Shown here piece by piece: positions 3,012-21,528 of a stretch of 21,528 nucleotides of DNA. How positions within the stretch are numbered: position 1 is the first letter of the stretch; each line of letters starts with the position of its first letter. The stretch is from a virus: IMG/VR virus record IMGVR_UViG_3300043773_001536, positions 1-21,528 of that record. One strand, given 5' to 3'. A program made the position numbers and the translations under genes. The notes beneath the pieces were generated by a model. That model made no database searches. It had not been told where the DNA came from and worked only from the letters and a program-made list of their open reading frames with translations.

Positions 3012-3020
3012 GAAAATATT

Positions 3021-3048
3021 TAGTCAAGGAAAACCCGCCGAAGCGGGG
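3021..3048 (-). terminator. Intrinsic terminator of the tmRNA gene
   Basis: CCCGC-TTCG-GCGGG stem-loop (3047-3034) with a stable UUCG-type tetraloop, followed by TTTTCCTT on the minus strand. It lies 43 bases past the tag stop codon and ends the tmRNA precursor before the hydrolase gene. Confidence 0.88.
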
Positions 3049-3090
3049 TCCGAGTTTCTGTTACGAGGTATGTCTTACCCTAGGCTGCGT

Positions 3091-3123
3091 TTAGGCTGCC
3101 AATGCGAACTGTGAGTCGTTTGC
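3091..3123 (-). CDS. tmRNA tag-peptide reading frame (ANDSQFALAA)
   Basis: Starts at resume codon GCA (3123-3121), preceded by AGTAAAC as in many tmRNAs, and runs A-N-D-S-Q-F-A-L-A-A then TAA. It is translated without a start codon after alanyl-tmRNA enters a stalled ribosome; the first alanine of the mature tag comes from the tRNA part. The ALAA end is the kind recognised by ClpXP-type proteases. AND...FALAA most resembles betaproteobacterial tags (recalled, not searched). Confidence 0.9.
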   Translation of the reverse strand, partial: ANDSQFALAA

Positions 3124-3379
3124 GTTTACTTTTTTTGCTTCTGCGGCCGGGAACCCCCAACCCTAACGGTTTTCACATTACCGAGTTGCCGTCTCTACTA
3201 TCTAACCCAATCGATCCTGTGTATGGCCCATCATAAAAACACTGTATGCTCTTATGGTGGACCATTCGGGCACTGCCCCCGAGTCTTGGATTCCTTCGCT
3301 TTGAAGGGATTACAACTATTCAAATATTTATTAGTCTGCGTTTTTCTAATCGCAGTTCTAGTATTTTTTTAAATCATTC

Positions 3380-5879: not shown

Positions 5880-6518
5880 TCAATAGTTGTGCCAGGATGT
5901 ATGAGTAAATTCAACATTGGGCACTGTATTTCTACTGATTTGTATAGCCACACGAGTTGATTCAACATTTTCCACTGCGTGTAGAATTGCAGAGTTTATG
6001 CACATCCATTGTTGTGCAGGAAAGCACACACGGTCAATTTCCTTCATTGAGTCAAAATTCTTTGGTATGCGATCAGGATCAAACACTGACTTTAGATCGG
6101 GACGCACCAGTGGGTATCCATGCTGTTGATACCATGATGTTTCTACCCGACTGCCACCTGTGTCCAAGATGTACATGATGGTGTAGTCTCTGCTGATGTC
6201 CACATGTGGTGCAAAGAACGAGCTGTGATCATCATAAACTGCTACCCCACACGGTGCAGGATCTTGATCAAAGTACTGGCGTACCCATTGATCAAATTCC
6301 TTACTGATACTGTACCTATGGGACTTGATAGTTTTGACTTCTGCGCCATCACGCAAGGTAAAATTTCGATATTCGTACTCAGCATACCCAGGTCGGTCCA
6401 ACCAATTGTTAACCTTGACTTCGTGGTTGTTTTTGTTGATTTCCAAACTTGCCCAGGCCGCATCCACAATTGTCTGCGGCAATGGGGGTAAGTCTAGGTA
6501 TGCGTAAGTAAACGTCAC
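5880..6518 (-). CDS. 2OG-Fe(II) oxygenase-like protein
   Basis: 212 residues. The iron-binding triad pattern is visible: H105-x-D107 (PHVD) on one strand and H180 (AILHAVEN) on another, followed by R189 (STRVAIQI) in the position that binds 2-oxoglutarate. The spacing fits the double-stranded beta-helix fold of prolyl/aspartyl hydroxylase-type enzymes. The substrate is unknown; phage oxygenases of this type can modify proteins, nucleotides or sugars. It starts with GTG at 6518, overlapping the upstream stop as GTGA; there is no in-frame ATG before the iron-binding region. A degraded copy of its 3' end lies at 4063-4113. Confidence 0.75.
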   Translation of the reverse strand: MTFTYAYLDLPPLPQTIVDAAWASLEINKNNHEVKVNNWLDRPGYAEYEYRNFTLRDGAEVKTIKSHRYSISKEFDQWVRQYFDQDPAPCGVAVYDDHSSFFAPHVDISRDYTIMYILDTGGSRVETSWYQQHGYPLVRPDLKSVFDPDRIPKNFDSMKEIDRVCFPAQQWMCINSAILHAVENVESTRVAIQISRNTVPNVEFTHTSWHNY

Positions 6519-7408
6519 TTTTTGTTTTTTTCTGCTATGCGTTCAAAAATTTGCGCTTCTCTGTTGGCATACTGAGCAGCTCGCTGAGGTCCGTAGTTCA
6601 GCACAGTGAGCCCCAACAAATCTTTGAAGCTGGTGTTGGTGGAGTCTTGAACCAGTTTTGACATTTCTGTCACTGCCGCACGATCAGTGTCTTGTCTGGC
6701 CCAAACTGCATACCAATTGTGGGTGTAGCTACCACTGAAACCCAGCTCGTTGGCAGTGGGCACAGTTGGCATCTGTGGCAGTCGACGATCACCAAATACC
6801 AACACTGGTCTCACCTGCCCATTGTTGAAGGACGGACCAATTCCAGTGTAGGCCAGTACACCATATTCAGTGTGCCCGGGCAACACGTCATTGACCATGG
6901 GCGCCAGACCTTTGTAGGGAATCAAATTGAGTTTGGTGGGCCACTTTAGATCATTGAGCCATATTTCGCCTTGATTGGCCACGCCCACGTTGATGATGTC
7001 TTGGTTTCGGATCTGTTGTCGGATCTTGGAGTCGGAGCCTGTGCCACTGACAAACATCACATATGGACTTTCACCAATCAGCGCCACTGGCATAAATTCT
7101 CGATAAGTGTTGGTGCCCAACAATGCTGGCCCAACTACAAATCCAGCTTCGGCAACAATAAATGTGTGATTGTCGTTGGGTCTATTCAACACATGTGTGG
7201 TGGCAACTGCTATGGCCGCCCCGGGCATGTACTGAACTTCAACTGGAACTGTGACTTTGCTTTGAAAGTCTTTTTGCATGGCTCTTGCAAATCTATCAAT
7301 AAGCCCACCGGGTGGATATGGAACAATAAGCGTAATGGACTTAGTCGGCCAGGCCAGCGCAGACACAGAAATCAACATGGTCGTGATAAAGGCTAACAGC
7401 TTTTTCAT
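6515..7408 (-). CDS. Bug/TctC-type periplasmic solute-binding protein (first copy)
   Basis: 297 residues with a clear Sec signal peptide (MKKLLAFITTMLISVSALA, cleavage before WP). Mature residues open with the family hallmark ITLIVPYPPGG. Further along are the expected ...IPYKG...P.VNDVL.GH... region (about 162-182) and the LPQMPTVPTANELGF motif. These proteins bind small carboxylates in the periplasm for tripartite tricarboxylate transporters. No TctA/TctB membrane partners are in the window. AGGAT precedes the ATG by a few bases. It overlaps the oxygenase-like gene by 4 bases. The gene is close to full length, so it is likely functional cargo. Confidence 0.92.
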   Translation of the reverse strand: MKKLLAFITTMLISVSALAWPTKSITLIVPYPPGGLIDRFARAMQKDFQSKVTVPVEVQYMPGAAIAVATTHVLNRPNDNHTFIVAEAGFVVGPALLGTNTYREFMPVALIGESPYVMFVSGTGSDSKIRQQIRNQDIINVGVANQGEIWLNDLKWPTKLNLIPYKGLAPMVNDVLPGHTEYGVLAYTGIGPSFNNGQVRPVLVFGDRRLPQMPTVPTANELGFSGSYTHNWYAVWARQDTDRAAVTEMSKLVQDSTNTSFKDLLGLTVLNYGPQRAAQYANREAQIFERIAEKNKK

Positions 7409-7433
7409 ATATCCTCAAAAAGTAATTGTTGAA

Positions 7434-7458
7434 CAAAAGCACTGCTAGAGTGCTTTTG
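7434..7458 (-). terminator. 10-bp hairpin terminator between DctP-like and Bug-like genes
   Basis: CAAAAGCACT (7434-7443) pairs perfectly with AGTGCTTTTG (7449-7458), loop of 5. On the minus strand the 3' arm ends in TTTTG followed by TTC. It is a symmetrical A/T-flanked stem of the intrinsic-terminator type, so the gene at 6515-7408 may need its own promoter or read-through. Confidence 0.6.
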
Positions 7459-7496
7459 TCTAGAGACAGTAACAGGGATGGCTCCCACGTTGCTGT

Positions 7497-8456
7497 TTAT
7501 TGATGTTGTTGAATACTTTCGACCAATCCAGGAGTGAATGTGTCGCGGAATTGATCATACACACCGCTCAGTGCAGCCTTGGCAGACTCACGTTGCTGTT
7601 GTGTCCACTTTACAATGTTGGCGCCTTCTTCTTCCACAAGACGCTGTTCGGCACGAGCACCATCACGAATGGTTTCAGCACGCTCTTCGCGTCCAGCCAG
7701 CACAGCAGCTTCCTTGATAACGGCTTGAACCTCAGGGCTCAGGCTATCCCAAAAGCGATCGCCAATGATCATTGATGTAAGGAACAAACTGTGACCAGTG
7801 TCAATTACTGACTTGGTGACTTCGTTTTGACGCAGTGGGTACACACGTGGGTAGTTGGTTTCGCCGCCTTCAGCTTCACCGTCAACCACCACCTGACGCA
7901 GGTCTTCTACTTCGGCCACAACAGGCTTCATGCCCAGTGCAGAAATAGTTGCTTGTGCAACAGGGTTACGGTTTGAACGAACTGGTGTGCCGGCAAGTTC
8001 TTCAAGAGTGCTGACTCGCTTGTTGGAAATCATTTGACGGAAACCGCCTGAGTATGTGAAACTCAAGCCACGTACATTTGACTTGTCTGTGAGCTTGGCC
8101 AGCAGTGCTTCTCCAACTTCGCCTTCAAGCACACGACTAGCATGATCGTGATCCTTGAACAAGAATGGTAGATCAAATACCAGGAAGTCTTGTTCATACT
8201 TCTCAGCAAGCCATGTAGTATACATTTGGCTCATTTCAATTTTGCCTGCTTCCATGAGATCCAGCAAATCGTGTTTGGTAACAACGACGCCATCGTTATA
8301 GCGTTGGCTGTACTCACTGAGAGTCATGATCTCAACTTCGATTTTGTGCTCGCTTTGTTGTTCGTTTACACGGCGCTCAAAGTCTTCAGCAGCTCGGAGG
8401 AAAAGATTCAAAGGTTCATGGGCAATGACCCAGCGAATTTTAGTAGTTTTACTCAT
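7497..8456 (-). CDS. TRAP DctP-type solute-binding protein without signal peptide
   Basis: 319 residues from ATG 8456, preferred over an upstream TTG. DctP features are visible: an N-terminal beta strand and helix, LPFLF preceded by FDLP (about 92-100), and the YSGGFRQMISNKRVSTLEELAGTPVR region with the substrate-contacting Arg (about 135-165). ALGMKPVV and the EGGETNYP stretch follow. These proteins bind organic acids in the periplasm for TRAP transporters. This one starts MSKTTKIRWVIAH with no hydrophobic signal, and no DctQ/DctM genes are present. So it should stay in the cytoplasm, or have another role. A TATAAAAA box runs into the start codon and GGAT may serve as ribosome-binding site. 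Confidence 0.85.
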   Translation of the reverse strand: MSKTTKIRWVIAHEPLNLFLRAAEDFERRVNEQQSEHKIEVEIMTLSEYSQRYNDGVVVTKHDLLDLMEAGKIEMSQMYTTWLAEKYEQDFLVFDLPFLFKDHDHASRVLEGEVGEALLAKLTDKSNVRGLSFTYSGGFRQMISNKRVSTLEELAGTPVRSNRNPVAQATISALGMKPVVAEVEDLRQVVVDGEAEGGETNYPRVYPLRQNEVTKSVIDTGHSLFLTSMIIGDRFWDSLSPEVQAVIKEAAVLAGREERAETIRDGARAEQRLVEEEGANIVKWTQQQRESAKAALSGVYDQFRDTFTPGLVESIQQHQ

Positions 8457-8483
8457 TTTTATATCCAAAATTAGGTAGTTTAA

Positions 8484-8590
8484 ATGTGCTTGCGAGCATG
8501 CTCGCTACGGTTGGCGTTCTAGGCATAACATGCTAGTAAAGGAGTCGCTACTCCAGGCGTCTTTGACCCGACGTCGATCACTTGATCGGC
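8484..8590 (-). ncRNA. Hairpin-rich leader of the DctP-like gene, candidate regulatory RNA
   Basis: In the 144-base gap upstream of the DctP-like start lie three good hairpins: a 14-base palindrome GCGAGCATGCTCGC (about 8490-8503), GGAGT-CGCT-ACTCC (about 8540-8553), and a 9-bp stem made by CGTCGATCA and TGATCGGCG (about 8571-8590). None has a T tail on the minus strand, so simple termination does not explain them. A 5' regulatory structure or phage RNA element is possible. I do not recognise a known riboswitch class. Confidence 0.4.
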
Positions 8591-8600
8591 GCTGCCACTT

Positions 8601-9500
8601 TTATTTAGTCAGTGACACGCCTTGACTCAAACGTTTCCACAGCGCCACCTGTGAATCAAACCAAATTTGTGTGGCCGAAGTGTTGATGTTGCTCGGATCA
8701 CAGTAGTCCACTGAATAGGCACGCTGTACTTTATCTGTTCGGGCGGCTTGCAGTACCAGTCCGCGCAGTTCTTGATACTGTGCTTCGGGCATGGTTCTGG
8801 GTACTTGCAAACTGTGCATGTTGACCACTTCACCCACGCCAGCAAAGCCCTGACTTTCCAATGTGGTAATACCGCGTACTACTTTTCGACCACTAATACC
8901 CAAGGCATTGAGATCACCGCGATCCAAGAAACCTTCAACTTCGCCCAAGAATGCCACACTGAGATCAATGTTACCCGAGATGGCATCGATGCTGGCTTCA
9001 CGTGTGCCTTTGTAGGGCACCGGAGTGGCGTTGGGATAGCGTTTGACAATTTCCATGGCCATGAGGTGCGAAGTAGCACCCAAACCAGAAATACCAATGC
9101 TGAGCTTTTGATTGCGGTCAATTTCACGCCAACTACGATACTTCTTGCTCACAATCAACATGGGCGCTGCGCATTGAGTCATCAGCGGCCGGAAGTCACT
9201 GACTCGATGACTTTCATCAGGATAAAAGTTGGGACGCACAAAAAATGCTGTGCTTGCGGCCAGCACAGTGTTTGGTGTAGCTGCTACATACTTGGCACCA
9301 ATGGTTGCACCTGCGCCAGGCTTGTTTTCCAGGATGAAATTGTATTTCTTTTGACCGGCGTTGAGTTCTTCCACCAGGCTGCGACTGTATTGGGCCTGTG
9401 TGTCGCTCATGCCAAACGGCCAAACAATAGAAATAGTTTGCTGTGCTTGTGAAGCCAATGATGTAACTACAAATGCAGCGGTAATTAGAAGTTTTTTCAT
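8601..9500 (-). CDS. Bug/TctC-type periplasmic solute-binding protein (second copy)
   Basis: 299 residues. Signal peptide MKKLLITAAFVVTSLASQAQ, then ISIVWPFG..., a diverged version of the family's N-terminal strand and loop. NKPGAGATIGAKYVA (about 58-73) is a strong family signature, as is VPYKGTREASIDAISGNID (about 161-179). It belongs to the same family as 6515-7408 but is clearly diverged, so not a recent duplicate. Role: periplasmic capture of small organic acids; ligand unknown. AAGGAAAT precedes the ATG. The ATG overlaps the stop of the PP-loop gene (9497-9500). There are no transporter membrane genes nearby. Confidence 0.9.
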   Translation of the reverse strand: MKKLLITAAFVVTSLASQAQQTISIVWPFGMSDTQAQYSRSLVEELNAGQKKYNFILENKPGAGATIGAKYVAATPNTVLAASTAFFVRPNFYPDESHRVSDFRPLMTQCAAPMLIVSKKYRSWREIDRNQKLSIGISGLGATSHLMAMEIVKRYPNATPVPYKGTREASIDAISGNIDLSVAFLGEVEGFLDRGDLNALGISGRKVVRGITTLESQGFAGVGEVVNMHSLQVPRTMPEAQYQELRGLVLQAARTDKVQRAYSVDYCDPSNINTSATQIWFDSQVALWKRLSQGVSLTK

Positions 9501-20060: not shown

Positions 20061-20493
20061 TGGCTTGCTCTTGAGTTTGAAAAGGACCTTGGTAAGCATA
20101 ACGCTCCAAGGCAATAAGTTTGGGGTGTTGCACCACTCGCCACTTGCGATGTTGTTTGACCCGGTACCAGCCTGCTGCGAACCAGGACTTAGATTTTTCT
20201 TCTTTGGTAAACAACGGTAATTTATGTTTGACATCCCACAGTGGATTGAACACCGCACCCATGACCTCGTGTCCATACACCATGTTTGCCGGCTGTGGCG
20301 TTGCTGTTTCAGCTGGCTCGAATTGGATGTTTATGGCATCGCGAGCCATTTTAATGGTTTGATATTTTGCTACACTGTCTAGGATTTTTATTGTGCAGTT
20401 GCCGTTGTCAGCAACTTCAAGTTGGCCAATCTTGCGATTATCCTTCTTGAGTATCCAATACTGATTCTCTACTATGGGTTTGGCTAGTATCAT
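20041..20493 (-). CDS. Conserved T4-like phage protein (NPLWDVKHKLPLFTKEEKSKS type)
   Basis: 150 residues. The C-terminal half VYGHEVMGAVFNPLWDVKHK, LPLFTKEEKSKSWFAAGWY and HPKLIALERYAYQGPFQT is a signature I associate with a conserved protein of unknown role in T4-like cyanophages and pelagiphages. The N-terminal half (YWILKKDNRKIGQLEV) is a small beta domain. AAGGAG lies 8 bases upstream of ATG 20493, firmly fixing the start, even though it lies 56 bases inside the exonuclease gene. Confidence 0.82.
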   Translation of the reverse strand: MILAKPIVENQYWILKKDNRKIGQLEVADNGNCTIKILDSVAKYQTIKMARDAINIQFEPAETATPQPANMVYGHEVMGAVFNPLWDVKHKLPLFTKEEKSKSWFAAGWYRVKQHRKWRVVQHPKLIALERYAYQGPFQTQEQANDQSVS

Positions 20494-21487
20494 CTAGTAC
20501 TCCTTTATATGTTTCGTTGAGCCATCGACTGACTTGTTCGGCGTTCTCACTGAGTTTGGTCAACTCATACCGGCCACAGAATCGCATGAAGTGAACTCCA
20601 ACTTGTCCAACGTCGCGATGACTGACTTGCTCACGAATGCATTGGTCAACCACGGCCTTGACATCATCGGGTTGCGCAGTAAGGTCAACCAAGGTCCGAT
20701 TGCGTTCGTAATCATCCTTGACTCGGTGTTCTGCACCATTGTGGTCAGTCCAACGTTGTAGCATCAGATTGTTCCAGTTGTAGCCTTTATTACCGCGATC
20801 CGCGTAGGCTTCACGGAGACCAACCTTATTCTTTGTTCCCTTCTCACGTACTCCCGGATATGCACTAAACACATTGTCGGAGGTGTCCCCACGCATGCAC
20901 TTTTCAAATAGTAGCCATTGGGGGTCCGGAGTGATTTTTGGTTGTTTAGTTTTCTTATCAACGACAGGGTTGCCTTTGGCATCAAATATACCTTCCAGGG
21001 TCAGTAGTTCGTCCGTGATACCGTTGTATTGTTGTACATTGGCAGCCAGTAACTGCACAAAGTCAGTGTCTGAGCTTACAATTGTGTGTTCATCTTGGGG
21101 GTGTAGTGCAATCCAACGTGCAATGACGTCATCTGCTTCGGCGGTGGCGCAGCGGACGACGCTACAGTTTGTTCGAGTAGACAAGTATTTAGTCAGCTCA
21201 TCATAGGTTTCCCAAAACAGCTTGTCTTCTTCTGCTTCAGTTTCCGTCATTGCACCACGTGCCACAGCACGGTTTTTCTTGTAGGGTTCGTAGAAGTCCT
21301 TGCGCCAGCTACGCCCTTCTAGTGCAAAAATCACATGATCTGCTTGGAATCTACGAGCCACTTTGTTGGCGGCCATAATGGTCACATGCAGGGCAAAGCC
21401 CAATTTGGTCCATGTGTCACTGGCACGATGTGCACTGTGCCTGGCACGGAAAAACATGTTGGCAGTGTCAATCAGCAGATATTTCAT
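20438..21487 (-). CDS. rnh: T4 RNase H-like 5'-3' exonuclease (FEN/PIN-like)
   Basis: 349 residues from ATG 21487. MKYLLIDTANMFFRARH carries the first metal-binding Asp. EGRSWRKDFYEPYKKNRA is the helical-arch region. EADDVIARW (about 117-125) and SSDTDFVQL (about 137-145) give the central acidic cluster, and RGDTSDNV (about 207-214) the helix-hairpin-helix-side Asp pair. This is the 5' nuclease family that removes RNA primers and flaps in phage replication. It shows the T4 RNase H/phage FEN layout rather than the polA domain. The last 56 bases overlap the next gene out of frame. Its presence supports a replication-core location. Confidence 0.88.
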   Translation of the reverse strand: MKYLLIDTANMFFRARHSAHRASDTWTKLGFALHVTIMAANKVARRFQADHVIFALEGRSWRKDFYEPYKKNRAVARGAMTETEAEEDKLFWETYDELTKYLSTRTNCSVVRCATAEADDVIARWIALHPQDEHTIVSSDTDFVQLLAANVQQYNGITDELLTLEGIFDAKGNPVVDKKTKQPKITPDPQWLLFEKCMRGDTSDNVFSAYPGVREKGTKNKVGLREAYADRGNKGYNWNNLMLQRWTDHNGAEHRVKDDYERNRTLVDLTAQPDDVKAVVDQCIREQVSHRDVGQVGVHFMRFCGRYELTKLSENAEQVSRWLNETYKGVLDDTSQTHSRESVLDTQEG

Positions 21488-21528
21488 TGGGTGCAATCAG
21501 GTTGTTATCGTTGATGTATTGTAACACA
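21468..21528 (-). CDS. C-terminal end of a gene entering from the right edge
   Basis: An open minus-strand frame from the edge reads LQYINDNNLIAPNEISAD and then TGA at 21470-21468, overlapping the exonuclease start by 20 bases. The composition and overlap fit the operon style here. Only 19 residues are visible, so the product is unknown. Confidence 0.5.
   Translation of the reverse strand, partial: VLQYINDNNLIAPNEISAD

Follow-up and report, generated by a model that had tools for sequence, protein, structure and literature searches.

Known phage tmRNAs and the present locus

Two-piece tmRNAs encoded by phages have already been published, and the kind of gene described here is therefore a known one. 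A count made in 2022 arrived at 133 unique phage tmRNA structures, including 53 two-piece forms, 50 of which were marine or aquatic (PMC9004378). A tmRNA database of 2025 holds 79 phage sequences (PMC11915505), and huge phages with both tmRNA and SmpB have been reported (PMC7162821). The first-pass annotation of the present locus, which stated that a few phages carry one-piece tmRNA, thus gave only part of the picture, since the two-piece forms were already in print. A clear example is the Methylophilales phage Melnitz, a pelagimyophage-type virus with a Methylophilales (OM43) host, whose two-piece tmRNA has been described as alpha-related and is linked to a glutamine riboswitch (PMC9004378).

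The locus described here lies in a 21.5-kb virus record, IMGVR_UViG_3300043773_001536, a fragment of a jumbo myophage; all 21,528 nucleotides were analysed and are referred to as the window. Like Melnitz, it offers a phage-borne permuted tmRNA, but the riboswitch link of Melnitz is not shared, and an Rfam search of the window found no riboswitch. In another comparison, Xanthomonas phage XacN1, Stenotrophomonas phages Moby and DLP_6, and Alcaligenes phage QDWS595 also possess permuted tmRNAs that exceed the RF01850 cut-off, yet all have the standard T loop TTCGAYT, unlike the window. Erythrobacter phage XM05 and Mesorhizobium phage Cp1R7A-A1, two phages of alphaproteobacteria, have alpha-type T loops (GGCAGAG and GGCGGTG) and the D loop GGATCGA; their best model is the alpha model, and their tags are longer than that of the window. 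The XacN1 record (AP018399.1) contains tmRNA matches of equal score at 37231-37530 and 356026-356325, probably a terminal repeat, and the first is unannotated in the record. In XacN1 (L169, 3342-3755) and in a 300-kb contig (L278, 9451-9914), GOLLD RNA lies amid tRNA genes, no more than a few kb from the permuted tmRNA.

Among bacterial genes, the betaproteobacterial permuted tmRNA (RF01850) has the same gene order as the window's gene, together with a ten-residue ANDxxFALAA-type tag and a 3' terminator hairpin, but the window's T and D loops depart from the beta type and its score is far below those of host-type genes. Conversely, alphaproteobacterial tmRNA (RF01849) is alike in its T and D loops, whereas the window's tag is short and beta-like and the alpha score is below that of the beta model. 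A chimeric elbow, the shuffling of modules and genes nested in the linker appear to be new, none having been found in a literature search conducted mostly outside subscription papers.

Identity and anatomy of the gene

Three permuted-tmRNA models of Rfam match the window above their cut-offs. The beta model, RF01850 (beta_tmRNA), gives 112.9 bits (E 4.8e-34; cut-off 84) over the whole of its 331 positions; RF04321 (tmRNA_permuted) gives 110.7 bits (E 3.4e-21; cut-off 47) over model positions 1-213 of 213; and the alpha model, RF01849, gives 77.6 bits, above its cut-off of 50 but below the beta-model score. The gene was missed by ARAGORN, which called five tRNAs and no tmRNA in the window, so annotation by ARAGORN alone would overlook it. 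A tRNA-like gene at 270-367 (98 bases; 38.9 bits with Rfam) was also missed by ARAGORN. The features of the locus, all on the minus strand, are as follows.

3028-3368, minus strand: permuted two-piece tmRNA (ssrA) gene, by Rfam covariance models RF01850, RF04321 and RF01849
3325-3333, minus strand: T4-late-promoter-like box TAATAAATA, just upstream of the acceptor piece, a consensus match only
3255-3317 (5' limit approximate), minus strand: acceptor piece (helix-2 3' strand, T arm, acceptor 3' strand and encoded CCA), by Rfam alignment and direct reading
3286-3292, minus strand: helix-2 3' strand AATCCAA, by Rfam alignment and direct reading
3266-3282, minus strand: T arm TCGGG-GGCAGTG-CCCGA, with the alpha-type loop at 3271-3277
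3259-3265, minus strand: acceptor 3' strand ATGGTCC, which contributes U70 of G3-U70
3230-3254, minus strand: intervening segment (ITS, or linker), 25 nt, predicted to be removed, without an ORF
3223-3229, minus strand: acceptor 5' strand GGGCCAT, the start of the coding piece
3206-3222, minus strand: D-loop region ACACAGGATCGATTGGG, alpha-type
3204-3210, minus strand: helix-2 5' strand TTGGGTT, by Rfam alignment and direct reading
3130-3185 (limits approximate), minus strand: pk1 region, with the 'GTTAGGGTTGGGG...GGCCG' module
3091-3123, minus strand: tag frame ANDSQFALAA-stop, with the resume codon GCA at 3121-3123
3034-3047, minus strand: intrinsic terminator CCCGC-UUCG-GCGGG, followed by UUUU

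The acceptor piece, whose encoded CCA ends at 3255, is followed by the intervening segment and then by the coding piece, which runs from 3229 downwards. The acceptor strands GGGCCAT and ATGGTCC pair 7/7 across the two pieces, including G3-U70, the alanine identity pair. The tag frame is open and ends in a hydrophobic degradation signal (LAA), and ANDSQFALAA and ANDEQFALAA are the most frequent tags in the phage clade. The first-pass description is borne out: the gene is a circularly permuted tmRNA in two pieces by RF01850 and RF04321, has a terminator of its own and keeps its ANDSQFALAA tag intact. The anatomy given there (acceptor and helix-2 strands, CCA, 25-nt linker, tag and terminator) was found at the stated positions, on the minus strand. 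The acceptor strands and the tag are also conserved in related phages.

An alpha-type elbow with a beta-like tag

Viral contigs were scanned for GGCAGTGCCNNNNNGGTCCACCA and for the D loop CACAGGATCGATTGRGT, and at least 119 viral contigs were found with each; the selected loci that were put through Rfam are permuted tmRNAs. Among the matches listed, the T loop GGCAGTG is present in all 114 D-loop-selected loci with an acceptor piece, and all five positions of the T stem pair in every one of them, with five stem sequences represented. Likewise, T stems are paired in 144 of the 144 T-loop-selected loci listed, in seven sequence types. The loop, fixed while its stem stays paired across several sequence types, is thus under constraint. 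The window's T loop had initially been regarded as degenerate, a view that has to be given up, since GGCAGTG does not vary across well over 100 phage tmRNAs and constitutes an intact alternative loop of the alphaproteobacterial type.

The Rfam alpha consensus has the T loop GGCgGUA and the D loop AGGAUCGACG, as against GGUUCGAUUCC and GGUUUCGACAGGG in the beta consensus. The window combines the T loop GGCAGTG with the D loop AGGATCGA, which matches the alphaproteobacterial consensus. Specifically, the alpha-type T loop GGCrGUr and D loop AGGAUCGA are present in its tmRNA, and the beta-type T loop (UUCGAUU) and D loop (GGUUUCGAC) are absent, with GGCAGUG and AGGAUCGAUU in their place. By simple alignment to the consensus lines, the T arm is identical to alpha at 23/31 positions versus 17/31 for beta, and the D region at 19/25 versus 15/27, whereas the tag region appears closer to beta (29/38) than to alpha (26/38). 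As the T and D loops match alpha while the tag looks betaproteobacterial, the most economical reading of these short segments, set against two consensus lines, is that the window tmRNA is probably a chimera of an alpha-type elbow (T and D loops) and a beta-like tag.

The elbow could instead have converged on the alpha form within a beta-like phage tmRNA, with no recombination with an alpha-type gene. Other related phage tmRNAs have intermediate T loops (TGCGAAT, TGCAAAT and TTCAAAT), as convergence would have it, but the match to the alpha pair extends to T and D loops alike, module exchange is demonstrable among these phage genes, and convergence is accordingly considered possible but rather unlikely.

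The exchange of modules is seen in L196, L229, L237, L240 and L269, which have in common an identical 64-nt acceptor piece and a near-identical start of the coding piece and which differ in pk1 module, tag and terminator. Similarly, the window has the tag region and the 3' end in common with L127, its nearest relative, but not the acceptor stem, the T stem, the linker or the pk1 module, the pk1 site of L127 being occupied by an alternative 'GGCGATGAC' module. A shared acceptor piece with differing modules in the L196 group, and a shared tag region with a differing acceptor piece in the window/L127 pair, indicate that within-gene recombination is common. Tag frames that are unusually long, at about 24-29 residues (e.g., ANASTGEVTVSGKNVKFSARTAQRQSLAV), occur in L119, L215, L222, L229, L237, L240 and L269, and the long-tag tmRNAs differ among themselves in pk1 module.

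Pairing of the linker ends and genes nested in the linker

Linker lengths in relatives range from 23 to 382 nt. The first eight bases of the linker pair with the bases before the -4 position of its other end in 784 of 816 cells (96%; 102 distinct linkers), with many compensating pair types; when the 3' ends were swapped among linkers, a mean of 507 and a maximum of 544 of the 816 cells were paired. Thus, the acceptor stem is extended in the precursor, and this extension is conserved. The window precursor folds with its linker ends extending the acceptor stem at -22.2 kcal/mol, and a similar extension, seen by eye in the host-type gene L110, suggests that the feature is probably general.

The longer linkers of relatives contain reading frames. 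A wall-to-wall ORF, defined as at least 30 codons starting no more than 40 nt from the CCA and ending no more than 20 nt from the coding piece, is present in 20 of the 21 distinct linkers of at least 130 nt, versus a mean of 0.44 and a maximum of 3 in shuffles, although both the counts and the shuffle comparison overstate the number of independent cases because the linkers and tmRNAs of related phages are not independent. The nested ORF usually starts after TAAGGA, directly behind the CCA, and ends in TGA or TAA before GGG. Its Shine-Dalgarno sequence base-pairs with its own last codons, so production of the tmRNA and expression of the nested protein would be coupled. Nested genes of 23-123 codons are found at L209, L231, L212, L257, L338, L241, L270, L210, L343, L348, L260 and L278, and also at L335, L336, L045, L227, L234, L237 and L285. 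The 69-aa product from L209 belongs to DUF2061 (E 3.5e-20).

Aligned pairs of nested ORFs gave dN 0.144 and dS 1.38 (L209/L231), 0.021 and 0.140 (L257/L338), 0.029 and 0.245 (L241/L270), and 0.230 and 1.84 (L210/L343). With dN/dS near 0.1-0.15 in these four pairs, the nested ORFs appear to be under purifying selection; two other pairs, L260/L278 and L210/L348, had few changes and were uninformative. Between L209 and L045, the acceptor pieces do not differ at all, nor do the coding pieces as far as the terminator, yet the nested genes are unrelated; the same acceptor piece recurs in L195 with a linker of 76 nt. It is as if the linker were an exchangeable cassette site. No ORF was found in the window's own 25-nt linker, and no report of ORFs inside a permuted-tmRNA linker was found in the literature searched, mostly outside subscription papers. 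It is likely that the permuted tmRNA gene serves as a modular platform in freshwater jumbo phages, in which the tRNA-like domain, pk1 and tag recombine and the ITS provides a site for protein-gene cassettes with coupled expression; the window would then hold a cargo-free copy.

Function, expression and partners

The window gene is a real phage-encoded permuted tmRNA of a widespread jumbo-phage lineage, and its features suggest that it is most likely functional. Several features speak for a working tmRNA: every position of the acceptor stem is paired, compensating changes among relatives preserve the T stem and the linker ends, the tag is intact and ends in LAA, and the gene provides the G3-U70 pair and the encoded CCA on which charging with alanine depends. 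The precursor would fold as one long hairpin, with the linker extending the acceptor stem, and host RNase P and 3' nucleases would excise the linker to leave two RNAs joined by the acceptor and helix-2 pairings. Host AlaRS would charge the phage tmRNA and host SmpB would deliver it, whereupon stalled ribosomes would be rescued and the peptide tagged for ClpXP-type degradation. Its most likely role would be to keep up ribosome recycling while mRNAs are broken during infection.

SmpB was found in 0 of 40 and 0 of 19 viral records, which are mostly incomplete genomes but include contigs of 374 and 353 kb. Host SmpB is therefore presumed, and an SmpB of the phage's own would not be required for its RNA. 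As for expression, consensus matches to T4-late-like boxes lie upstream of 38 of the 112 distinct clade tmRNAs, versus 5.2 (maximum 12) in random pieces, and consensus matches to sigma-70 promoters upstream of 33 of the 112, versus 2.0; a search upstream of the copy in the window gave no sigma-70 promoter. ClpP is encoded by most of the largest relatives. A specific tmRNA-ClpP link was rejected, since ClpP is also encoded by PA5oct and RaK2, both of which are without permuted tmRNA. ClpP-like or HslV-type peptidase genes lie within about 0.5 kb of the phage tmRNA at L366 (G217), L018 (G014) and L353 (phage XM05), the gap being about 340 bases in G217 and G014.

The phage RNA might, alternatively, act as a decoy or inhibitor that occupies host SmpB or ribosomes and thereby blocks host trans-translation. 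The tag-less tmRNA of mycobacteriophage DS6A has been reported to inhibit host tmRNA (PMC11915505), and some relatives of the window's gene have very long or altered tags (28-29 aa ending in LAV or LAA). A decoy needs no tag, however, and the window retains its tag frame, resume codon region, CCA and G3-U70 intact, with a tag of the two commonest kinds in its clade, making such a role improbable.

Origin of the gene and of the contig

The beta model gives the best clan score, and the tag resembles the host-type ANDERFALAA of L110, as would be expected if a betaproteobacterial ssrA gene had recently been captured from the host and were carried as a passenger with little phage function. The first-pass proposal of capture from a betaproteobacterial host is weakened by the window's score of 113 bits, versus 232-298 for host-type genes, and by the alpha-like elbow of its tRNA-like domain. 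A recent capture as a passenger is very doubtful, given these two points and the wide occurrence of the lineage among jumbo phages, in which compensating changes are seen in the stems. Bacterial genomes were also scanned for the ANDSQFALAA-type tag (pattern WSN at the fourth codon), and the sole match, with the tag ANDTQFALAA, was to L135 (CAIMDH010000093.1), a 3-kb contig in a Lake Erken MAG. This looks like a phage contig misbinned in the MAG, as other genomes sampled from that order had no match above the cut-off. The scan thus found no bacterial source of the tmRNA. The L135 contig is phage-like, its MAG has a small genome, and a ClpP-like protease gene adjoins the permuted tmRNA. From this lake contig and general knowledge of such metagenomes, rather than from sample metadata, we infer that the lineage is mainly freshwater.

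The phage origin of the window itself is secure. Its 5'-3' exonuclease (20438-21496) has its nearest isolates in the jumbo phages PA5oct (53%) and the GAP32/RaK2 group (47-49%), and at least 600 relatives in viral contigs, one of which is 97% identical and lies in a 72-kb contig that also carries the tmRNA. Contigs of 374, 353, 320, 300, 229 and 192 kb each combine a tmRNA of this lineage with an exonuclease that is 54-83% identical to the window's, and records picked by the exonuclease only (G024, G025, G031, G037, G040, G042 and G047) also contain an RF01850 match above the cut-off. The placing of the tmRNA on a phage genome, as first annotated, is upheld by this recurrent pair. That the contig is a chromosomal or integrated fragment with a bacterial tmRNA is exceedingly improbable and was rejected, for although the window contains host-like genes (TctC, DctP, Asn synthase and a glycosyltransferase), its exonuclease is of the RaK2/PA5oct jumbo-phage type and the exonuclease-tmRNA pair recurs on viral contigs from the 72-kb one up to 374 kb. 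Three adjacent genes for periplasmic solute-binding proteins (TctC, DctP and TctC) lie at 6515-9500 of the window and are perhaps related to host metabolism or receptors. The DctP protein was uninformative as a clue to the host, its best matches having about 30% identity.

Conclusions

Taken together, the features of the gene and of its relatives are very likely best explained by a working phage-encoded permuted tmRNA that is served by the host, probably chimeric, and reshuffled in freshwater jumbo phages, as opposed to one recently captured from a host. Under this explanation, the gene would have been kept and reshuffled within these phages, with no recent acquisition from the present host. 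The mixture of alpha and beta features touches on earlier inferences of phage host switching that were drawn from whole-gene tmRNA trees, and what appeared to be decay of the T loop becomes a conserved design feature. The gene also offers a concrete handle on which SmpB and which host groups such an RNA works with. The nested genes, if expressed, would represent a novel arrangement, with protein genes packed into the gene for a structural RNA. Finally, jumbo phages not only keep but also remodel a central ribosome-rescue RNA of bacteria.
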